32,197 nt of DNA from a virus: IMG/VR virus record IMGVR_UViG_3300035211_000269, positions 1 through 32,197 of that record; one strand, written 5' to 3'. Position numbers and translations under genes: made by a program. A model generated the notes under the pieces. The model made no database searches. It was not told the DNA's origin and saw only the letters and a program-made list of their open reading frames with translations. Below, piece by piece: positions 13,781 through 32,197 of this stretch (position 1 is its first letter; each line of letters starts with the position of its first letter).

Positions 13781-14223
13781 GTTGTTGTCACCGCTGTTAC
13801 AACAGAAGGATTACTGACGTATTTCTTTACACATTTATAAGCAGCAATCAGAAATGGCTTTTTCATTTCTTCTATTTCATCCGGGGTTGCAATTCTAAAA
13901 TTCCCCTCACCGAACTTCTGCGAGAAAGCGGATTGCACAATACCTTCCCGGCCGATTTTGATGTTCAACTTGGGAATTATAGCATACATCAACAGCTCAG
14001 CTTCAGCCCGTTGAAAAGCACTGAGCTGCTTATCTTCATCCGGTGTCCGTTCGCCAGGGTCTTTTCCATTGATAACTTCGGTTTCCTCATATTTTGAATC
14101 CGACGTCATTTCCCGCAAGAGGTCTTCCGCATCATCCAAATGCGAATCAATCAGACCAGCAGGGAAATCACTTCCCTGCTGGCCGTGCCGTGTAAGGAAA
14201 AAAGCTTCATCAATCAGGGGCAT
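13777..14223 (-). CDS. Head-tail adaptor (gp6 / gp36-like)
   Basis: 148 residues, helical, located directly after the major capsid gene. The N-terminal helix pair (AGLIDSHLDDAEDLLREM) followed by AFQRAEAELLMYAIIPKLN and a helical C-terminus fits the small all-helical head-tail adaptor that closes the portal. The family assignment is from gene order and helix pattern only. The end overlaps the gp10-like gene by 4 bases. Confidence 0.6.
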   Translation of the reverse strand: MPLIDEAFFLTRHGQQGSDFPAGLIDSHLDDAEDLLREMTSDSKYEETEVINGKDPGERTPDEDKQLSAFQRAEAELLMYAIIPKLNIKIGREGIVQSAFSQKFGEGNFRIATPDEIEEMKKPFLIAAYKCVKKYVSNPSVVTAVTTT

Positions 14224-24385: not shown

Positions 24386-24431
24386 AGTTTGCTCCTTAAA
24401 TTCATAAGTTCTTTTGATTCCCCTTATTGGT

Positions 24432-24466
24432 ATTATAGTCTATCAAATCAATTCTGTCTTACAGAA
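24432..24466 (-). promoter_or_regulatory. Candidate late promoter with overlapping palindrome
   Basis: On the minus strand the -35-like AAGACA (24460-24455) and TATAAT (24437-24432) are 17 bases apart, and the glycosidase gene starts about 47 bases downstream. A palindrome TTCTGT-CTT-ACAGAA (24452-24466) covers the -35 region and could bind a regulator. The -35 is non-consensus, as expected for an activated promoter. Confidence 0.5.
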
Positions 24467-24514
24467 AATACGGAAAAAAAGAGTTTTGATACAAAAAAGT
24501 ACAAAATTAAATGA

Positions 24515-24541
24515 GCGACAGGGACTTTTTGTCCCCGTCGC
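24515..24541 (-). terminator. Intrinsic terminator after the 44-residue peptide gene
   Basis: GCGACAGGGAC (24515-24525) and GTCCCCGTCGC (24531-24541) pair over 11 positions around a 5-base loop. The one non-canonical position is a G-U pair on the minus strand, which gives a complete stem there. The stem is followed on the minus strand by T-rich sequence (ATTTAATTTTG). On the plus strand it is followed by GTTTTT, so bidirectional use is possible. Confidence 0.7.
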
Positions 24542-24561
24542 CCGTTTTTAAAGGTAAAAGG

Positions 24562-24696
24562 TTATGTGATGGATGAGTCTTTTACCATTGGTATGGGATC
24601 GTCAATCACTACCACCGGGGGAGTGACCGGGGGATTCATTGTATTACCGGCAAAAATCTTTGACATTTCGTCTCGATTAAGCGTCTTAACTTTCAT
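24562..24696 (-). CDS. 44-residue RiPP/bacteriocin-like precursor peptide
   Basis: Small frame with a strong AGGAGG site 5-6 bases before ATG, its own consensus promoter upstream and its own terminator downstream, so it forms a complete single-gene unit. The peptide begins MKVKTLNRDEMSKIFAGN, resembling double-glycine-type leaders of bacteriocins and related natural products (L-x-x-x-E-M-x-x-I-x-G-G pattern), here ending in AGN. The remainder is a proline-rich, acidic, cysteine-free core (NPPVTPPVVVIDDPIP). No maturation enzyme is next to it. It could also be a phage regulatory or toxin peptide. The RiPP reading is an inference from the leader pattern. Confidence 0.65.
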   Translation of the reverse strand: MKVKTLNRDEMSKIFAGNTMNPPVTPPVVVIDDPIPMVKDSSIT

Positions 24697-24716
24697 TGTA
24701 GCCTCCTTAAGCACGC

Positions 24717-24745
24717 ATTATAGCCCCCTATCCCCACCCTGCCAA
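24717..24745 (-). promoter_or_regulatory. Strong sigma70-type promoter for the peptide gene
   Basis: On the minus strand TTGGCA (24745-24740) and TATAAT (24722-24717) are separated by exactly 17 bases. The peptide start codon is 20 bases after the -10 element. The spacer is G-rich. Confidence 0.75.
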
Positions 24746-24843
24746 ACAATTTTTACGGAAAAAACGGAAAAAAGCAGAAAAAATTTAGCTCCGACACCAA
24801 ACTGATGACGGAAGCTGGAAATTTCCTATTGACTTAATCAGAA

Positions 24844-24862
24844 AAGCCTCAAATAGAGGCTT
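24844..24862. terminator. Hairpin, possible bidirectional terminator
   Basis: AAGCCTC (24844-24850) and GAGGCTT (24856-24862) around AAATA. On the plus strand AACTTTTT follows; on the minus strand TTCTGATT follows. It stands upstream of the peptide promoter. Confidence 0.5.
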
Positions 24863-24871
24863 AACTTTTTA

Positions 24872-24894
24872 GGTGTCATCAAAACTATGACACC
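24872..24894. repeat. Hairpin GGTGTCAT / ATGACACC
   Basis: Perfect 8-base arms (24872-24879 and 24887-24894) with a 7-base loop, 9 bases after the previous hairpin. No T run follows. It may be a protein-binding dyad. Confidence 0.45.
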
Positions 24895-24915
24895 CTATTG
24901 GTAAAGTTCAAATAT

Positions 24916-24953
24916 CATAAAGGGGGGGGGATACAGTGTCCCCCCACCTTATG
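24916..24953. repeat. Hairpin with G9 homopolymer
   Basis: CATAA (24916-24920) pairs with TTATG (24949-24953), and a run of nine G (24922-24930) faces CCCCCC-ACC (24940-24948) around a 9-base loop. The G run is prone to length change. Confidence 0.5.
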
Positions 24954-24960
24954 AGACTAC

Positions 24961-25260
24961 AAAAAAATTAAAACTTAAAACCATTTTAACCGAGTTGAAA
25001 AAAGATAGTCAAGCCTAACATATGGGCGAAATTCGACCATGAAAAATGGGCCAAAATATATTCAATAAATCCGCAAATACTGACTATAATTAAATTACAT
25101 ACATTTTAGCCCCTGCCAATAGGGGCGAATTTAGACCCTCATTAAACGGACTAAACTTTCCACCAAATAACCCTAAACGCTGTTTATAATTAGATTTCTA
25201 CCATTTTTAGACCATTTACCGGAGGGGCTAAATTTGCCCCTTCCCAACACCTGGCCCACC
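24961..25260. repeat. Degenerate tandem repeat of about 100 bases, non-coding
   Basis: Related blocks recur about every 100 bases. One is GGGCGAAATTCGACC (25024), GGGCGAATTTAGACC (about 25123) and GGGCTAAATTTGCCC (about 25225). The other is TATAATTAAATTACATACATTTTAG (about 25085), TTATAATTAGATTTCTACC (about 25186) and a weaker copy near 24966. No gene is visible between the peptide promoter and 25441. Confidence 0.5.
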
Positions 25261-25278
25261 AAACGCGCAGTCATACCA

Positions 25279-25309
25279 CTACCTACTACCTACTACTTAC
25301 TACCTACTT
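25279..25309 (+). repeat. CTACCTACTA microsatellite
   Basis: Tandem ACTACCT / ACTACT-type repeats. The complementary TAGTAGGTAGTAGG occurs at about 29979-29993 inside a coding region. Confidence 0.7.
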
Positions 25310-25351
25310 CGCAACCCCCCGCCATCATCACGTTTTTTTTAAAAATTTTTA

Positions 25352-25385
25352 TTGACAAATACAAAAAAATATACTATTCTATAAT
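25352..25385 (+). promoter_or_regulatory. Promoter of the accessory two-gene operon
   Basis: Consensus TTGACA (25352-25357), with TATTCT (25375-25380) after 17 bases or TATAAT (25380-25385) after 22 bases. The first gene starts about 60 bases downstream. Confidence 0.65.
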
Positions 25386-25440
25386 ATGATTGATATAAAG
25401 AAAGTTTTCAGGAGAAATCAGTGAAGATAGGAGACATAAA

Positions 25441-26118
25441 ATGATGAAGAAAATTTTAACAGCAATGGTTGTAATTATTGTGCTTTTATTAGGTATGCCT
25501 ATTTATGGCGTAGTTAGTGGCAATTGGGGTTGTGGCCCATTAATTCCTGATGGATGTCAAAATAGCGCTAATACTTCCGGCTTAAGTAGTGTTAAAAGCG
25601 GATATACAATAGGACAATTAATCGCTGAAGGAACATATTATTATACATCAGCGAATTCTAAGTATCAGGAGTTTTTATCAAAGATTGAAATTTCAGAATT
25701 GAGGGGATATAACTTTTCAGAACTTAAAAATATAGTTGATATTGCTTTAAAAAACATGTATATGGCAGAAAGGTTTTATAGGGAAGTATTTGATATAGCA
25801 TCACAATGCGAATGTGATGAAAAATATTTGCAAAAATTAAGAGAATTCGATTATGATGCTTTTCAACAAAAAAACAATTTAATCCCTTCCGTATTGGAGA
25901 AAACCAGAGATTATTTATCTATAGGAAACATAAAGGGAGTCTTTGAGGTAATGTCGGTTGAAAGCTTAAATATTTACAATTTACTAACAGCTATTAAATC
26001 CCAAATTGATATAGAAAAAGTCCCAGAGTACCATTTGATGTGGGATTGTAACCAAAGGTTTTTTGTAACTCATCTTTTTGGTCAATATGTGTCGATGATA
26101 TTTTATAATTTAAAATGA
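25441..26118 (+). CDS. Secreted or membrane-anchored protein of a moron cassette, unknown
   Basis: 225 residues. A hydrophobic N-terminal segment (about 5-24) resembles a signal peptide or anchor. It is followed by a Gly/Cys-rich stretch (GNWGCGPLIPDGCQNS) and then a mainly helical body with a CECDE pair near 120. The family is not recognised. The gene is much more A+T-rich than the phage structural genes, consistent with separate origin. It has its own promoter and a good AGGAG site. The next gene starts inside its stop codon (ATGA), so the two are made together and probably act together at the cell surface. Confidence 0.75.
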   Translation: MMKKILTAMVVIIVLLLGMPIYGVVSGNWGCGPLIPDGCQNSANTSGLSSVKSGYTIGQLIAEGTYYYTSANSKYQEFLSKIEISELRGYNFSELKNIVDIALKNMYMAERFYREVFDIASQCECDEKYLQKLREFDYDAFQQKNNLIPSVLEKTRDYLSIGNIKGVFEVMSVESLNIYNLLTAIKSQIDIEKVPEYHLMWDCNQRFFVTHLFGQYVSMIFYNLK

Positions 26119-27884
26119 TAGAAACGCTAAAACATGAATTTAAGAGAAATGTAAGCATATTAACATTGTCGGTTTATATAATTTTTTTTATACTATCATT
26201 GGTTATGGTACAAATAGGAATAGCTAAGTATGAAAGAGAAAAAATTAGATGTATAGATTTTTCCAATATAGAATATAAAAAGATTCAAAGATACATAAAT
26301 TATCCCCAATACGGCATTTATGGATTTAGAATGATTTTGAAATCCAGGCCAATATCAGCGCTTTTTTTTAATTCTAATCCATTTAATGAACTTGTAGGAT
26401 ATATTGACAATGGAGTCAGGATCGATAATTATGAATCAAAAACAAGCCCTAAAATATACATAAAAGCAACTGGAGGATTTATTGATTTTTCATGGATAAT
26501 GACTATTTTAGGAAGCTTGGTTATATCCACGTGGGGTTTATTCACTTTTAGGGATGTAGAGCACATAGAAAACTTAAAAAATTTTACATCATTAAAAAAA
26601 GTAAGAATTGGGATAATCTTTTTAAGAAGTATATTCGTGCTTATGTTTTTTGTTTTTATAGGTATAACAATATATGTCCAATATTTTTTAAATGGAATAT
26701 CATTGAGTACAAAAGAAATAATAGGAATAATAATCTATTTGTCTTTACTATTTTTTACCCTATTATTTTTTTTAATCATTAGTTCTCTATTTGGGAAAAT
26801 TAAAAAATTGTTTATAGCATGCATCACCGTAGGTATCTTATGGGTGCTTTTTGCATTTCTTTTACCAGAGCTTTTAAGTATCTGTTTTACTTTCAAAATA
26901 GAAGATTCAATGAAATCTGAATACAATCATGAATTAAATAAAACTGAAATACTTATGGATTTTGAAAAGGAAGCCTACACGGTTTCAAAAAGACATGAAA
27001 CAAAATCTGAAAAAATTGAATCAGATAAAAAATATCTAGAAAAATATAAAAAGACAGAATTTCCAATATTGATTAATCTTGAAAAAAGTAGGCTAAATAA
27101 AGTAAGAGATCAAGTAAGGGACTTGCATTTTTGGGCTTCAATATTTCCCGTTACATTCCTTAAATCAATTACTAATGAAATTAGCTCAAGAGGCTATCAA
27201 GCCTATCTGGATTTCTATAATAAAAACAGAGTTCTTCAAGCTGATTTTTTTATTTTTTATTCAGATCACGTATATTCTGACAGCTATGGAAAAGTAACTC
27301 CCTTTCTACAAAAAGGAGAAAATGTTATAACATCTCAGGTCAAAGTTCCAAATTACTTTTTATTGGGATTTCTAATATTAGTTTTATACATTATGGTGTT
27401 TTTTTTCTTATCTGTGGTAGACATTGATGTCTCAAGCAGTAGGTATCACCTCCCTAAAGACGTTGATACCGAATTAATGAAAGGCAAATTAAATTATTTT
27501 CTAACAAAAGACAATATGCTTAAAAGAGCGTTATTAAACCATTTTACTGATTATTGGTACTTACCAAACCTGTCAAAAATTGGATTATCATTCGAATGGA
27601 GTGATATCTTTAATACCGCCCTTAGCTCCGGAAAATCTATTCTTATTGGTAGTGGTTTTCTTGATGGACTTAAAAAGGAAGATATTTTTTCTATTAAAGA
27701 AAATTTAAATAAAAAAAATATCACTTTTCTTGAAATTGGGTGGAATGAACATCAATATTATCAATACGTTGATAAAAAAATCAAATGGATTAATGATACG
27801 ACTATAGATCATGGGGGATATTCCGATTGCTTTGATTCAGATTTCGCCTTAAGAAGGCCAACCAAAAGCGAATTGAATATTTAG
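26115..27884 (+). CDS. ABC-2-type permease-like membrane protein without adjacent ATPase
   Basis: 589 residues. Helix 1 is near 15-35, then an outer loop (about 36-115), helices near 121-143, 165-187, 200-222 and 229-255, a second large outer loop (about 260-412) rich in charged helices, a sixth helix near 416-440 (NYFLLGFLILVLYIMVFFFL), and a 150-residue soluble C-terminal part. Six helices with two long outer loops is the layout of ABC-2 permeases of the DUF3526 kind. No ATP-binding subunit is encoded nearby, so it would borrow a host one or work differently. The C-terminal domain is not recognised. A+T-rich, like its partner. Its stop codon abuts the stop codon of the converging gene. Confidence 0.6.
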   Translation: MIETLKHEFKRNVSILTLSVYIIFFILSLVMVQIGIAKYEREKIRCIDFSNIEYKKIQRYINYPQYGIYGFRMILKSRPISALFFNSNPFNELVGYIDNGVRIDNYESKTSPKIYIKATGGFIDFSWIMTILGSLVISTWGLFTFRDVEHIENLKNFTSLKKVRIGIIFLRSIFVLMFFVFIGITIYVQYFLNGISLSTKEIIGIIIYLSLLFFTLLFFLIISSLFGKIKKLFIACITVGILWVLFAFLLPELLSICFTFKIEDSMKSEYNHELNKTEILMDFEKEAYTVSKRHETKSEKIESDKKYLEKYKKTEFPILINLEKSRLNKVRDQVRDLHFWASIFPVTFLKSITNEISSRGYQAYLDFYNKNRVLQADFFIFYSDHVYSDSYGKVTPFLQKGENVITSQVKVPNYFLLGFLILVLYIMVFFFLSVVDIDVSSSRYHLPKDVDTELMKGKLNYFLTKDNMLKRALLNHFTDYWYLPNLSKIGLSFEWSDIFNTALSSGKSILIGSGFLDGLKKEDIFSIKENLNKKNITFLEIGWNEHQYYQYVDKKIKWINDTTIDHGGYSDCFDSDFALRRPTKSELNI

Positions 27885-28276: not shown

Positions 28277-28726
28277 TTAACTTTTTTCACCTCCAACCAT
28301 TACCATACCACCTTCTTTTTCCATTTTCCTTTTTAAAAAATAATTTTTAAATGCGGGATCTGACTCAGCCAGCATTATAGCTTTAATCATTTCATTCACA
28401 AGTAGTTTATCATTTAAGGAGTCTATTATTCTTAAAATGTCTTCATTTATCGATTTACCTTTCAATATAGCGTTTATTGCTTGTTCTTTATTTAGATTTC
28501 CGTTTTTTAAATACATATTTCCTTCCCCCATAATTAACCAATTCAAGTTGATTCCAAATTTACTGCTTAACAGACCCATAAATTCAAGGCTTGGATTAAG
28601 ATTCCCTTTCTCAATTTTTGCATAATTAGATTGGCTTACATTTAAATAATCGCACATTTGCTTTTGGGAATATCCTATTTTCCCCCTTATGCACTTAATC
28701 CTATCTGAAATATTTTCACCTGTCAT
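28277..28726 (-). CDS. XRE-family phage repressor
   Basis: 149 residues. Residues about 5-62 form a Cro/CI-type helix-turn-helix domain: IKCIRGKIGYSQKQMCDYLN, VSQSNYAKIEKGNLNPS and LLSSKFGINLNWLIMGEGN. The remaining part is helical, with DILRIIDSLNDKLLVNEMIKAI likely for dimerisation. No S24 peptidase domain is present, so it is not cleaved like lambda CI; release must occur another way, perhaps through an antirepressor such as the BRO-N-like proteins. It reads leftward from divergent-facing control DNA with three dyads. AAGGATGG precedes its ATG. Confidence 0.9.
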   Translation of the reverse strand: MTGENISDRIKCIRGKIGYSQKQMCDYLNVSQSNYAKIEKGNLNPSLEFMGLLSSKFGINLNWLIMGEGNMYLKNGNLNKEQAINAILKGKSINEDILRIIDSLNDKLLVNEMIKAIMLAESDPAFKNYFLKRKMEKEGGMVMVGGEKS

Positions 28727-28738
28727 TTATCCATCCTT

Positions 28739-28753
28739 ATTCCATATTGGAAT
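28739..28753. promoter_or_regulatory. Operator-like dyad O1
   Basis: ATTCCA-TAT-TGGAAT with perfect 6-base arms, just upstream of the repressor start. Probably a repressor binding site (inference). Confidence 0.6.
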
Positions 28754-28790
28754 TCAAATTCTCGAAACCCACCGCCGATGCGCAGAAAAT

Positions 28791-28805
28791 ATTCCAAATT
28801 TGAAT
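28791..28805. promoter_or_regulatory. Operator-like dyad O2
   Basis: ATTCCA-AAT-TTGAAT, same layout as O1 with one mismatched arm base, 52 bases from O1. Confidence 0.5.
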
Positions 28806-28812
28806 TTTTTTG

Positions 28813-28841
28813 TTGACAAATTTCCAAAATGGAATTATAAT
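28813..28841 (+). promoter_or_regulatory. Rightward early promoter (consensus)
   Basis: TTGACA (28813-28818), 17-base spacer, TATAAT (28836-28841). An ATG lies at 28849, about at the expected transcription start. The early leader and genes follow. Confidence 0.85.
28821..28835. promoter_or_regulatory. Operator-like dyad O3 inside the early promoter spacer
   Basis: TTTCCA-AAA-TGGAAT, 30 bases from O2, lying exactly between the -35 and -10 elements of the rightward promoter. Binding here would block RNA polymerase. Confidence 0.6.
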
Positions 28842-28971
28842 TATAGGTATGAGACAAAACGGATTTTTCAGAATGTTGGCTGAGCAAAGTGATAATCAAG
28901 AGAGGATAGGCTCTCCGGGTTTTGGTTACTGGGCTTATTTGAATTGTCAGCCTTTCGGATTTCATGTTACA

Positions 28972-29000
28972 ATAATAATGCACAATTTGAATTTTGTCAA
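28972..29000 (-). promoter_or_regulatory. Leftward promoter facing the early promoter
   Basis: On the minus strand TTGACA (29000-28995), 17-base spacer, TATTAT (28977-28972). The transcript would start near 28965, overlap the early transcript by about 117 bases, and run through the repressor gene. A weaker rightward TTGTCA-18-TACAAT (28944-28973) overlaps it. Confidence 0.65.
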
Positions 29001-29083
29001 CTCATTTCTTCAAAAAAAATTTCGCGCCTTGCTGAAAGCCACCAATAATAAGGAATGGGGATATACCGTTCCTGTCTCATACC

Positions 29084-29098
29084 AGGCATTCTATGCCT
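29084..29098 (+). repeat. Leader hairpin 0 (AGGCAT / ATGCCT)
   Basis: Perfect 6-base arms around TCT. No T run follows. A weaker hairpin lies just before it at 29051-29073. Confidence 0.5.
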
Positions 29099-29106
29099 AC
29101 ATGCCG

Positions 29107-29141
29107 GAGCGGGTGCGCTGCAGCCAACGGTGTACCCGCTC
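29107..29141 (+). terminator. Leader hairpin 1
   Basis: GAGCGGGT (29107-29114) pairs with ACCCGCTC (29134-29141); TATTTGTCTATTTTT follows. Terminator-like. Confidence 0.5.
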
Positions 29142-29182
29142 TATTTGTCTATTTTTATCTTCCTTTATTGATTCCAAATCAA

Positions 29183-29205
29183 GGGACCGGACCAGGTCCG
29201 GTCCC
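29183..29205 (+). terminator. Leader hairpin 2
   Basis: GGGACCGGAC / GTCCGGTCCC with a 3-base loop; six T follow at 29216-29221, 10 bases after the stem. Confidence 0.6.
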
Positions 29206-29256
29206 TCCTTCGCTCTTTTTTCAATCATTTGTGCATCGTTTATCTCTCCATCAAAC

Positions 29257-29281
29257 AGGGACCGGGTCTATCCCGGTCCCT
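29257..29281 (+). terminator. Leader hairpin 3
   Basis: AGGGACCGGG / CCCGGTCCCT with a 5-base loop. Its left arm and the bases before it resemble hairpin 2, so the two units are probably related. No strong T run directly follows. Confidence 0.5.
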
Positions 29282-29330
29282 TCACCTTTATTGCAGTTTT
29301 ATCACCCAACCTCCTATATTTTGTTTTTGC

Positions 29331-29360
29331 AATGGTCCCCGGGATTACCCGGGGACCGTT
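29331..29360 (+). terminator. Leader hairpin 4, strong terminator
   Basis: AATGGTCCCCGGG (29331-29343) and CCCGGGGACCGTT (29348-29360) pair over 13 positions, one of them a wobble, around ATTA, followed at once by GTTTTTATT. Confidence 0.8.
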
Positions 29361-29401
29361 GTTTTTATTAAGGTTCAAGCTTCTGTGGGTTAAAATAAAT
29401 T

Positions 29402-29453
29402 GCGGACCGGACGGGACCCTCATCCTCCAGACATGTTGTCCCGTCCCGTCCGC
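29402..29453 (+). repeat. Leader hairpin 5
   Basis: 16-base arms (29402-29417 and 29438-29453) with one mismatch and a 20-base loop; followed by a C run, so not a classic terminator. Confidence 0.65.
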
Positions 29454-29484
29454 TGCCCCCCCCTCCATCGTTACTCACAACTCA

Positions 29485-29514
29485 GGGGCTCAGCGGCCAG
29501 CGTCGCTGAGCCCC
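29485..29514 (+). terminator. Leader hairpin 6
   Basis: GGGGCTCAGCG / CGCTGAGCCCC, 11 perfect pairs and an 8-base loop, followed by ACTTTTCTTG. Last hairpin before the first early gene. Confidence 0.7.
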
Positions 29515-29586
29515 ACTTTTCTTGAAAAAAATCAGACCAAAAAGGCTTTAAATATAAAAAACACAAAAAACAAAAAGGAGGTAAAA

Positions 29587-29946
29587 ATGGAGTTCATTAA
29601 AAAAGAATATGTCGATCGTATGACCGATTCTTCCGCTGAGATTACATTTTACATAGGTGAAAACAAATTCTGGTTTAAACCGGAAGAAATCTCAATACCA
29701 ATGTCGATAAATGGTGATACTTTACTTGAAACACTTTCTTATCATGGCTATACGTTAAAGAGGCATGTCGGTTGGTTCAATCTTGAGGGAAAAGATGTTT
29801 TCCTGATTTCTTCCGTAGGAATACACTTGCTTGACTTATTGAGTCTCTTTCCATGGGCATATGATTTCTTTTCATGGATAAGAAAAGAGACAGGGCCTGA
29901 TGCAGTTTTTACCCTTTTCAAAGAGCTACAAAAAAAAATAGCGTGA
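29587..29946 (+). CDS. BRO-N-like early protein 1
   Basis: 119 residues. The pattern resembles the BRO-N domain of phage antirepressors: AEITFYIGENKFWFKPEEIS at the start, a central GWFNLEGKDVFLISSVGIHLL, and a final FFSWIRKETG helix. In other phages BRO-N proteins are DNA-binding regulators. The C-terminal domain usual in antirepressors is missing, so this is a single-domain form. It is the first gene after the hairpin leader and has a perfect AGGAGG site. The open frame runs upstream into the leader, but this start is strongly preferred. It is a distant relative of the gene at 30164. Confidence 0.65.
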   Translation: MEFIKKEYVDRMTDSSAEITFYIGENKFWFKPEEISIPMSINGDTLLETLSYHGYTLKRHVGWFNLEGKDVFLISSVGIHLLDLLSLFPWAYDFFSWIRKETGPDAVFTLFKELQKKIA

Positions 29947-29954
29947 GGTGAATT

Positions 29955-30155
29955 ATGATTATCTTTGTAAATGAAGGGTTAGTAGGTAGTAGGTTTGATT
30001 GCGTGATTGAGACTGTCGCTCAACGTGCAGTAAGAGAAAACGCCACACATTGGGAAGATATCGAAAATTTTCTTGCAGATTATCGTGAACACGTTCCCTA
30101 TAGTACGCATGCAATGGCTGCTATTTTCGCAAAAATTGATGAATTAGAGAATTAG
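29955..30155 (+). CDS. 66-residue early protein, unknown
   Basis: Short, helical, acidic protein with a GAGGTG site 4 bases before ATG, 8 bases after the first BRO-N-like gene. The stretch THWEDIENFLADYREHVPY and the ending AIFAKIDELEN suggest a small helical bundle. A TAGTAGGTAGTAGG repeat lies in its first codons. No family recognised. Confidence 0.65.
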   Translation: MIIFVNEGLVGSRFDCVIETVAQRAVRENATHWEDIENFLADYREHVPYSTHAMAAIFAKIDELEN

Positions 30156-30163
30156 GTGACATA

Positions 30164-30517
30164 ATGCAGTTCATCACGAAGTATAATTTCCAGGGGAATG
30201 ATATTTCCTTCTATGTGGAAGGGAATGTTATCTGGTTTGATGCCGCTCAGATTTCTATCGTTGTCGGTTATTGGTCAGAGGGGGGTATTGCTTTTGAGGT
30301 TAATATTGGAGTGCATAAGAAGGAGCTTAAACCCCACGCAAAAGAAATCATATTGCCGGAACACAAAAGAAAAAAAACACTCATGATCAGTGAAGTAGGC
30401 ATACTTAACCTTTTCGCAAAGTATTCAGATCAGAAATATCAAGATTTTCTTAAATGGTATAACGAATTAAAGCAAAAATCAATTCAATTGCAGAATGCAA
30501 TTAAAAGGCAAGCGTAA
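30164..30517 (+). CDS. BRO-N-like early protein 2
   Basis: 117 residues. The N-terminal part NFQGNDISFYVEGNVIWFDAAQI, then VVGY, matches the beginning of BRO-N domains (F-x-G-x-x-I ... W-F-x-A-x-x-I ... G-Y). The middle has KTLMISEVGILNLFAKYSDQ and the end a DFLKWYNELKQKSIQLQ helix. This is closer to the family than the gene at 29587 and probably its paralogue. A role as antirepressor acting on the XRE repressor is plausible but inferred. An AGGTGA site precedes its ATG. Confidence 0.7.
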   Translation: MQFITKYNFQGNDISFYVEGNVIWFDAAQISIVVGYWSEGGIAFEVNIGVHKKELKPHAKEIILPEHKRKKTLMISEVGILNLFAKYSDQKYQDFLKWYNELKQKSIQLQNAIKRQA

Positions 30518-30518
30518 A

Positions 30519-30683
30519 ATGGACTGTACGGTAAATGGTAGAAAGGCAAACAGAGACGCTTCACCCGGTTTCCTGGGTGAAGCTGATCTGTATTCTCCCT
30601 CTCTCCTCATGGAAGCATATAAACACTGGTGGCAATTCAACCAATGGAAAAAATGTTGGCTTGAGATTTTAAGGAGGTATTAA
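30519..30683 (+). CDS. 54-residue early protein, unknown
   Basis: Starts at an ATG one base after the previous stop; the ribosome site is weak (AAGG), so reinitiation is likely. Tryptophan-rich C-terminus (KHWWQFNQWKKCWLEILRRY). The start of this reading (MDCTVNGRKANRDASPG) is polar. Unknown function. Confidence 0.5.
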   Translation: MDCTVNGRKANRDASPGFLGEADLYSPSLLMEAYKHWWQFNQWKKCWLEILRRY

Positions 30684-30865
30684 TGGAACATCTTAAAGAA
30701 AGTGAGCTAGGCTATATCGAACATCTGATGATTAATTGGAAAACAGCGTGGGGTCTATGGAAATCACCCCCCCGTGAATTTCTTCATGGTATAATTCACT
30801 TCTTTCACGGCCTGGTGCCTTTTGACTGGACACTATTTCCCAATTGGAGGGACCATGCTAAATGA
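30683..30865 (+). CDS. 60-residue early protein, unknown
   Basis: Start shares its first base with the previous stop and has an AAGGAGG site. Rich in aromatic residues (NWKTAWGLWKSPPREFLHG, HFFHGLVPFDWTLFPNW), possibly membrane-associated or an inhibitor of a host protein. Its end overlaps the next gene by 11 bases. Family unknown. Confidence 0.6.
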   Translation: MEHLKESELGYIEHLMINWKTAWGLWKSPPREFLHGIIHFFHGLVPFDWTLFPNWRDHAK

Positions 30866-31151
30866 TAAAATAGACAGCCTGAAAAAGGGTGTCGATGGTA
30901 TGCGAATGTACCTTAGTGCATTTAAGTCCTGTCCTAAAAAGGACATCAAAAAGAATTTCCATTTTATTCAAGAAACATCCCTCTCTATTTCATATGCTCT
31001 CGCTAAATGCGGTCTTAATTTCATCCAGGTATGGGAGATTATGGGGGATATTTTTGAAACGATCGGCAATATTAGCAAAGAAAACAAATACCTGAAAGTC
31101 AATAAATATATTCAGGGGTATCTTAATAAGAAGGCAAAAAATGACAAATAG
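30855..31151 (+). CDS. Early protein X, first copy of a duplicated gene
   Basis: 98 residues, helical. It is homologous to the gene at 31600: both share LKKGV-G--YL near the start, FIQ-T--S, KC-LNF-QVW-IM-D-F and a helical tail. Start chosen at 30855, where GGAGG lies 4-5 bases upstream; an upstream in-frame start is less likely. It overlaps protein Y by 11 bases, and the X-Y pair is repeated downstream. Function unknown. Confidence 0.7.
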   Translation: MLNDKIDSLKKGVDGMRMYLSAFKSCPKKDIKKNFHFIQETSLSISYALAKCGLNFIQVWEIMGDIFETIGNISKENKYLKVNKYIQGYLNKKAKNDK

Positions 31152-31263
31152 CAAATTCACTACAAAACGAAAAGTATCAACAACCGGGGTTCTTTCCTAT
31201 AAAGGGACAAAATACTATATTAAGAAAAAGGAACTTAAAGGCCAGATAGTTGAAAGGTTTTAA
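31141..31263 (+). CDS. Early protein Y, short copy (40 residues)
   Basis: A 40-residue frame starting inside the end of X. It contains KRKVSTTGVLSYKGTKYYIK, nearly the same as residues 9-28 of the longer copy at 31871, and stops at IVERF where the longer copy continues. The pattern resembles one small SH3-like barrel such as the C-terminal domain of Mu-type transposases. It may be a truncated duplicate or a functional single-domain form. Followed 2 bases later by the next gene. Confidence 0.6.
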   Translation: MTNSKFTTKRKVSTTGVLSYKGTKYYIKKKELKGQIVERF

Positions 31264-31599: not shown

Positions 31600-31881
31600 A
31601 TGGATAATATGAAAATTGAAACCTTGAAAAAAGGTGTTGAGGGTATAAAGTTGTACCTGGATAATTTTGATCACCGTATTGAGAGTTGGCGTTTTATTCA
31701 AAAAACAACTGTTTCCTTTTTTCAATCTCTCTCAAAATGTGATTTGAATTTTTCGCAGGTGTGGAAAATCATGGAAGATGTTTTTTGCAGTATTAAAATT
31801 ATTTCAATGAACAATAAACACCTGGAACTCGATGGATTTATCAAGGGTGTAATTAATAAGGCGGCACAAAATGAGCAATAG
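31600..31881 (+). CDS. Early protein X', second copy
   Basis: 93 residues, paralogue of the gene at 30855 over its whole length (LKKGVEGIKLYLDNF, WRFIQKTTVSFFQSLSKCDL, LNFSQVWKIMEDVF), with a small gap near residue 25. GAGG lies upstream. It overlaps Y' by 11 bases, the same overlap as in the first copy, so the pair was duplicated as a block. Confidence 0.75.
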   Translation: MDNMKIETLKKGVEGIKLYLDNFDHRIESWRFIQKTTVSFFQSLSKCDLNFSQVWKIMEDVFCSIKIISMNNKHLELDGFIKGVINKAAQNEQ

Positions 31882-32197
31882 TAAAGACACGATTGAACGG
31901 AAAGTATCTAAAACGGGCGTGCTTTCATATAAGGGAAGCAAGTATTATATCAAGGAAAAGGGGCTGAAAGGGCAAACGGTTGAAGTAATTCGTGAGAGTG
32001 AACATAACACTCTCATTGTCAAGCTGGGTAAAACAACGGCCGTTGCCCGTCAATTCGAGATGGTATCCTATTCAAGTCTATTTAAATCGACACAAAATAG
32101 TACTCTGACTCTCTCCCATCAAGGTACTTTTAAATATAAAGGGAAAACATACTTTGTCGATAGCATCCACTTCCATAGTCGGTCCGTTCATGTTGAA
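31871..32197 (+). CDS. Early protein Y', longer copy, cut by window end
   Basis: At least 109 residues with no stop before the window edge. Residues 9-45 (ERKVSKTGVLSYKGSKYYIK on) match the short Y copy. A second related segment near 80-109 (TFKYKGKTYFVDSIHFHSR) suggests two or more tandem SH3-like barrels. The pattern G-x-x-x-Y-K-G-x-x-Y resembles the C-terminal domain of Mu and IS-family transposases. If the frame continues it might be part of such a protein or a DNA-binding regulator; no catalytic motif is present in the visible part. Confidence 0.6.
   Translation, partial: MSNSKDTIERKVSKTGVLSYKGSKYYIKEKGLKGQTVEVIRESEHNTLIVKLGKTTAVARQFEMVSYSSLFKSTQNSTLTLSHQGTFKYKGKTYFVDSIHFHSRSVHVE

Follow-up and report, generated by a model that had tools for sequence, protein, structure and literature searches.

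A periodic array of six RNA hairpins in the early leader of an uncultured phage: a possible transcription barrier

Why should a phage place six strong hairpins, one after another, between a perfect early promoter and the first gene that this promoter serves? The locus belongs to the IMG/VR record IMGVR_UViG_3300035211_000269, an uncultured phage, and was analysed over its 32,197 bases (hereafter the window). The - strand carries the late genes (terminase, portal, protease, capsid and tail), and the small early genes form a rightward run from 29587 up to the contig end, a gene layout from which we infer a temperate phage. The features of the early region are collected in Table 1.

Table 1. Features of the repressor-early promoter region and of the hairpin-bearing leader (window positions)
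Feature	Position	Strand	Properties	Basis
CI-type HTH repressor gene	28277..28726	-		Pfam HTH_3 8e-12, Phage_CI_repr 9e-7; PHROG transcriptional repressor
Probable repressor operator 1	28739..28753		ATTCCATATTGGAAT	repeat and palindrome family
Probable repressor operator 2	28791..28805		ATTCCAAATTTGAAT	repeat and palindrome family
Early promoter	28813..28841	+	TTGACA-17-TATAAT, sigma-70 consensus 12/12	promoter scan
Probable repressor operator 3	28820..28836		within promoter spacer	palindrome TTCCAAAATGGAA
Putative 5' RNA domain	28846..29083	+	closed by 11-bp stem 28846-28856/29073-29083	inverted repeat; fold z = -3.7
Stop-free frame, putative coding	28849..29946	+	365 codons; opens at the transcript's first AUG, spans every hairpin and stays in frame with first early gene	
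Counter-promoter toward repressor gene	28972..29000	-	TTGACA-17-TATTAT, 11/12	promoter scan
Hairpin hp0	29084..29098	+	small, 6 bp	folding
Hairpin hp1	29106..29142	+	15 bp including 4 G-U; -26.7 kcal/mol; terminator score 17	
Hairpin hp2	29182..29206	+	-21.0 kcal/mol; terminator score 5	
boxA-like site	29211..29218	+	CGCTCTTT, in linker 2, just after hp2	boxA search
Hairpin hp3	29257..29281	+	-21.0 kcal/mol; terminator score 1	
Putative anti-Shine-Dalgarno (anti-SD) stretch	29309..29329	+	within linker 3; could form 7+10 bp with first gene's ribosome site	
Hairpin hp4	29329..29362	+	-30.1 kcal/mol; score 48, strongest terminator; TTTTTATT tail	
Hairpin hp5	29402..29453	+	long loop; -29.3 kcal/mol; score -46 (+ strand), 16 (- strand)	
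Hairpin hp6	29485..29514	+	-27.3 kcal/mol; terminator score 40	
Shine-Dalgarno of first early gene	29575..29582	+	AAGGAGGT	sequence
First early gene	29587..29946	+	119 aa, orphan	Pfam/PHROG searches

The six hairpins are real and far beyond chance. All of them were recovered where the original prediction had placed them (29106-29514), preceded by a small seventh one, hp0, which that count had left out. Their stems comprise 10-18 base pairs (-21 to -30 kcal/mol) and are separated by gaps of 31-50 nt. The + strand fold energy of the 29084-29530 segment corresponds to z = -11.6, and five hairpins of -20 kcal/mol or below occur in 450 nt, versus a mean of 0.017 and a maximum of 1 in shuffled sequences; hp5 escaped the simple hairpin scan because of its long loop. 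Shuffling the entire window (n=5) produced no 450-nt cluster of that kind, and the phages lambda, HK022, Mu, P22, P2 and D3 have at most two such hairpins in any 450 nt of their + strand. The regular spacing that had been claimed (70-82 bases) also stands, in that the centres of hp1 to hp6 are 70, 75, 76.5, 82 and 72 nt apart, and their starts 76, 75, 72, 73 and 83 nt apart (range 72-83). The same six hairpins placed randomly match this evenness in about four of 10,000 trials (p ~4e-4).

The claim that the arms differ from one hairpin to the next holds for most units, which are unrelated, but not for hp2 and hp3, the outer nine base pairs of which are identical. The similarity score of hp2 and hp5 is marginal, the remaining units and the linkers show no significant similarity, and no motif common to the linkers was found. 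A repeat-unit RNA of the type III toxin-antitoxin or CRISPR-like kind, which requires near-identical units, was rejected, the units of the array not being alike. As regards the strand, the + strand stems contain seven G-U pairs, all in hp1, hp4 and hp6, which lose 3-7 kcal/mol when folded as - strand RNA; hp5 has the opposite bias, while hp2 and hp3 are neutral. Because G-U pairing gives three of the six stems a + strand preference, the structure appears to be RNA rather than DNA, and on balance the structured molecule is the + strand RNA, as the direction of the promoter predicts. Together, the energy z-scores, the even spacing and the strand-specific G-U pairs support the earlier suggestion that selection acts on structure.

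The array lies in the leader of an operon that is probably under repressor control. Three related palindromes (ATTCCATATTGGAAT and variants of it) precede and overlap the early promoter, and are likely the operators of the repressor. With transcription predicted to start at about 28848, the leader spans about 740 nt, because it is only at 29587 that a gene preceded by a good Shine-Dalgarno starts. No consensus-like promoter was found between the array and this gene, the product of which looks similar by eye to the Bro-N-like product of 30164-30517, an early gene with a weak match to Bro-N and anti-repressor families.

Do the hairpins stop transcription? Using a d'Aubenton-Carafa-type score, we found that hp4, hp6 and hp1 are good + strand terminators, and that hp2 and hp3 are marginal. 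Judged as intrinsic terminators by a GC-rich stem and a U tract, hp1, hp4 and hp6 are clear, hp2 and hp3 marginal, and hp5 fails. The T tracts noticed earlier behind some of the hairpins are thus good behind hp1, hp4 and hp6 and marginal behind hp2 and hp3, but missing behind hp5. On the - strand, hp2, hp3 and hp5 score 10-16, at least as well as on the + strand, so the array may in addition block transcripts running antisense in the direction of the repressor. Over 28400-30600 there are 10 terminator-like sites versus 2.1 in shuffles; the strongest + strand sites of the early region all lie within the leader, and nothing comparable occurs downstream in the early operon. The linkers are rich in C (53) and poor in G (18), with 40 YC steps, a make-up typical of Rho loading sites, and could load Rho. 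They are not unusually unstructured, their unpaired share not exceeding that of shuffled linkers.

Control of phage early operons by antitermination is textbook knowledge. From the above lines of evidence, we tentatively propose, rating it at somewhat less than an even chance, that the array blocks transcription within the leader of a repressor-controlled early operon, as a barrier that would need antitermination to be crossed. The polymerase starting at about 28848 would first make the closed 5' RNA domain, and would then run into six hairpins; hp1, hp4 and hp6, at a minimum, resemble intrinsic terminators, and the C-rich, G-poor linkers could add Rho loading. Transcription that leaks or reads through in a lysogen would be halted ahead of the lytic genes, whereas upon induction the polymerases leaving the derepressed promoter would be turned termination-resistant and traverse all hairpins. 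The barrier could be lifted by the 5' RNA domain, by Nus factors working through the boxA-like sequence, or by ribosomes that translate an open frame. If this reading is true, the six hairpins form a stack of stop signals, lytic gene expression depends on the phage overcoming them, and it must carry a matching antitermination device, perhaps of a new type, in an uncultured lineage. This proposal is favoured by the perfect promoter with overlapping operator-like palindromes directly upstream of the array, by hairpins far exceeding chance with high + strand scores for hp1, hp4 and hp6, by the excess of terminator-like sites and its confinement to the leader, and by the C-rich linkers. By analogy with lambdoid phages (PMC9378689) and with conjugative plasmids, such as pLS20, where multiple terminators and the conAn antitermination system are an established means of silencing a mobile-element operon (PMC8955417), a terminator barrier requiring antitermination would be the most economical mechanism. 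Three observations go against it: neither a protein nor an RNA antiterminator belonging to a known family was found, the - strand scores of hp2, hp3 and hp5 equal or exceed their + strand ones, and no relative bearing the leader was found. Furthermore, termination alone fails to explain six even units, given the marginal scores of hp2 and hp3 and the failure of hp5 to qualify as a + strand terminator.

Concerning the devices that could lift such a barrier, the putative 5' RNA domain occupies the first 235 nt of the transcript, and its closing stem contains the predicted transcript start. The boxA-like CGCTCTTT occurs at two sites in 32 kb, both strands included, one of them being at 29211, so that the chance of finding one in the leader is roughly 2-3%; run on lambda and P22, the scan picks up their nut sites. 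Taken alone, this site is a weak candidate. A boxB hairpin about 8 nt after the boxA is absent, the next hairpin, hp3, starting 38 nt downstream, and among the early proteins of the contig, which ends inside the operon, Pfam and PHROG searches identified none with significant similarity to an N-like arginine-rich protein. Processive antitermination, one of the mechanisms originally put forward, is therefore compatible with the array, but it lacks an antiterminator and a similarity to put, and has a single weak boxA-like match in its favour. Graded attenuation of the refolding kind, put forward at the same time, is not supported, for want of a rival pairing that is strong enough. The best alternatives to the arms of hp1, hp4 and hp6 are about 8-12 kcal/mol weaker, and a refolding attenuator or riboswitch was rejected; with no competing pairing within about 8 kcal/mol, a classical attenuator is unlikely.

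How does the leader compare with known systems? The put RNA of HK022 acts through the zinc-binding domain of the RNA polymerase beta' subunit. It is an antitermination RNA that follows an early promoter and consists of a pair of neighbouring stem-loops, about 70 nt in all (PMC9378689), and the leader is similarly a structured RNA lying soon after an early phage promoter, among terminators. The array differs in size and layout from the 70-nt, two-stem-loop put and has no sequence similarity to it. Its membership in the put family was rejected, since local alignment to the HK022 leader regions expected to hold putL and putR scored like shuffles (p 0.38 and 0.68), and since it has no adjacent pair of stem-loops. 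The conAn system of pLS20, which combines multiple intrinsic terminators and antitermination at the operon start (PMC8955417), resembles the phage in that a mobile-element promoter under tight repression controls several intrinsic terminators, with a structured RNA near the start. However, its terminators are spread over an operon of more than 30 kb, whereas those of the phage are clustered and evenly spaced in the leader, and no ConAn1-like gene was identified in the phage. Similarly to lambda nut/N and tR1 (Rho sites around boxB), the phage has an early leader with C-rich stretches and a boxA-like CGCUCUUU, but neither a boxB at a nut-like distance nor a recognisable N protein. The succession of hp2 and CGCTCTTT recalls the hairpin and nearby boxA of the boxB-boxA rrn leaders, except that the phage has a single weak boxA-like match. 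The dense periodic form of the terminator stack was found neither in Rfam, nor in the literature searched, nor in the six reference temperate phages, in agreement with the earlier statement that no named family has this design. The Rfam covariance models returned no family for the array, the relaxed-threshold matches being far below the gathering scores and taken as chance.

The leader had been called untranslated. One frame, though, stays open all the way between the promoter and the first gene, with 246 codons devoid of stops where about seven stops are expected. Such openness was reached in 7-8 of 10,000 trials (p ~8e-4) with the hairpins fixed and the linkers dinucleotide-shuffled, and at 1e-4 with mononucleotide shuffling, while either half of the frame alone gives p of only ~0.02-0.03. 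The codon score lies in the gene range over 28849-29083 and falls to strongly non-coding values in 29084-29322, which makes up the first half of the array, so that an ordinary coding region across the array was rejected. No homologues of the leader-frame peptide were found. Ribosomes might nevertheless lift the barrier, if a leaderless frame were translated from the first AUG, which coincides with the predicted start site, through the hairpins into the first gene; coupled ribosomes would keep the hairpins from forming behind the polymerase, and the peptide itself may not matter. The open frame and its gene-like beginning speak for this explanation; given the non-coding score in the array, the modest significance of each half, the peptide without homologue and the good Shine-Dalgarno that the first gene has of its own, we regard it as quite unlikely. 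A stricter version, that of a lysogeny safety lock in which a ribosome from the first AUG must trail the polymerase through a stop-free, otherwise unconstrained frame to pass the hairpins, seems more doubtful still. Either way, the stop-free frame offers a testable new route for lifting a terminator barrier.

Other explanations dispense with a barrier. The early promoter could drive a stand-alone multi-hairpin non-coding RNA that stops at hp4 or hp6, after about 515-670 nt, and acts in trans, for instance as a sponge or by target pairing through its linkers. Its regular beads-on-a-string layout with unrelated stems, the + strand G-U bias of hp1, hp4 and hp6, the strength of the hp4 terminator, and pyrimidine-rich linkers that can pair with several phage ribosome sites would all fit, but the early genes would then need another weak promoter, when no consensus-like one separates them from the array. 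As, in addition, the linkers are no more unpaired than shuffled ones and share no motif, and no Rfam family was recognised, we consider this RNA possible but rather unlikely. The linkers could also act in translation control, if linkers 1 and 3 base-paired to the first gene's Shine-Dalgarno and start codon, and the hairpins were spacers bringing these partners together. The predicted pairing is suggestive: each linker pairs at -19.7 kcal/mol, a value reached by 1/300 and 3/300 shuffles, and the ribosome site is about 1% unpaired in the full-leader fold versus 40% without the anti-SD stretches. For linker 1, however, several other ribosome sites are equal or better partners, as one other is for linker 3, and this very unlikely explanation leaves the terminators and the six hairpins unaccounted for. 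Finally, the hairpins could be accumulated palindromes of mobile or host type, or DNA sites, without a joint function, as might be thought from hp2 and hp3, which are partial copies, and from the host-like dispersed repeats and hairpins in other intergenic parts of the window. Against this improbable origin, the four other units differ, the G-U pairs indicate RNA, and the spacing is even. The hp2/hp3 arm pattern matches only these two places in the window and four unrelated single hairpins in viral contigs, and a scattered palindrome family in viruses was accordingly rejected.

Relatives of the phage were recovered through its late proteins, which led to two contigs (L012 and L013) with late genes about 67-87% identical in DNA to the window. 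Their sequence ends at or before window position 24430, ahead of the early region, and the collections searched yielded no relative in which the leader is present. A scan at the 24430 junction returned only the contig of L013 and an unrelated phage (L024), and the terminase had no match among genome contigs. The early proteins had no relatives among viral and genome contigs and are orphans in every collection searched; neither they nor the leader DNA gave anything convincing among phages and plasmids.

Hairpins also occur elsewhere. In the late region, a strong one at 14154-14184 (CCAGCAGGGAA...TTCCCTGCTGG) is kept in relatives (8455-8485 in L012), and the relative contig G001 has two similar hairpins, CTGTCACAA...TTGTGACAG (L022 330-371 and 703-734), at its left end near a methylase-like gene. 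The 24400-25440 segment, about 1 kb of mostly non-coding DNA between divergent genes, contains weaker hairpins at 24515, 24871 and 24920, and imperfect repeats (25020-25056/25119-25155, and inverted 25121-25140/25222-25241). Between the late region and the repressor, 25441-27884 holds two AT-rich genes (27-33% GC) without family matches, probably cargo genes, the second of which encodes several hydrophobic stretches. Within the early operon, a two-gene unit is duplicated in tandem (30855-31263 and 31600-32000), its first proteins being 46% identical and its second ones both displaying, by eye, GVLSYKGxKYYIK. Lastly, dispersed-repeat-like DNA at 300-580 and 25278-25305 (GGTCATTAGTCATTGG; CACCAAGACACAAAGACAC with an inverted partner; CTACCTACTACC), which we take to be of the kind present in bacterial chromosomes, may aid in naming the host or the prophage edge.
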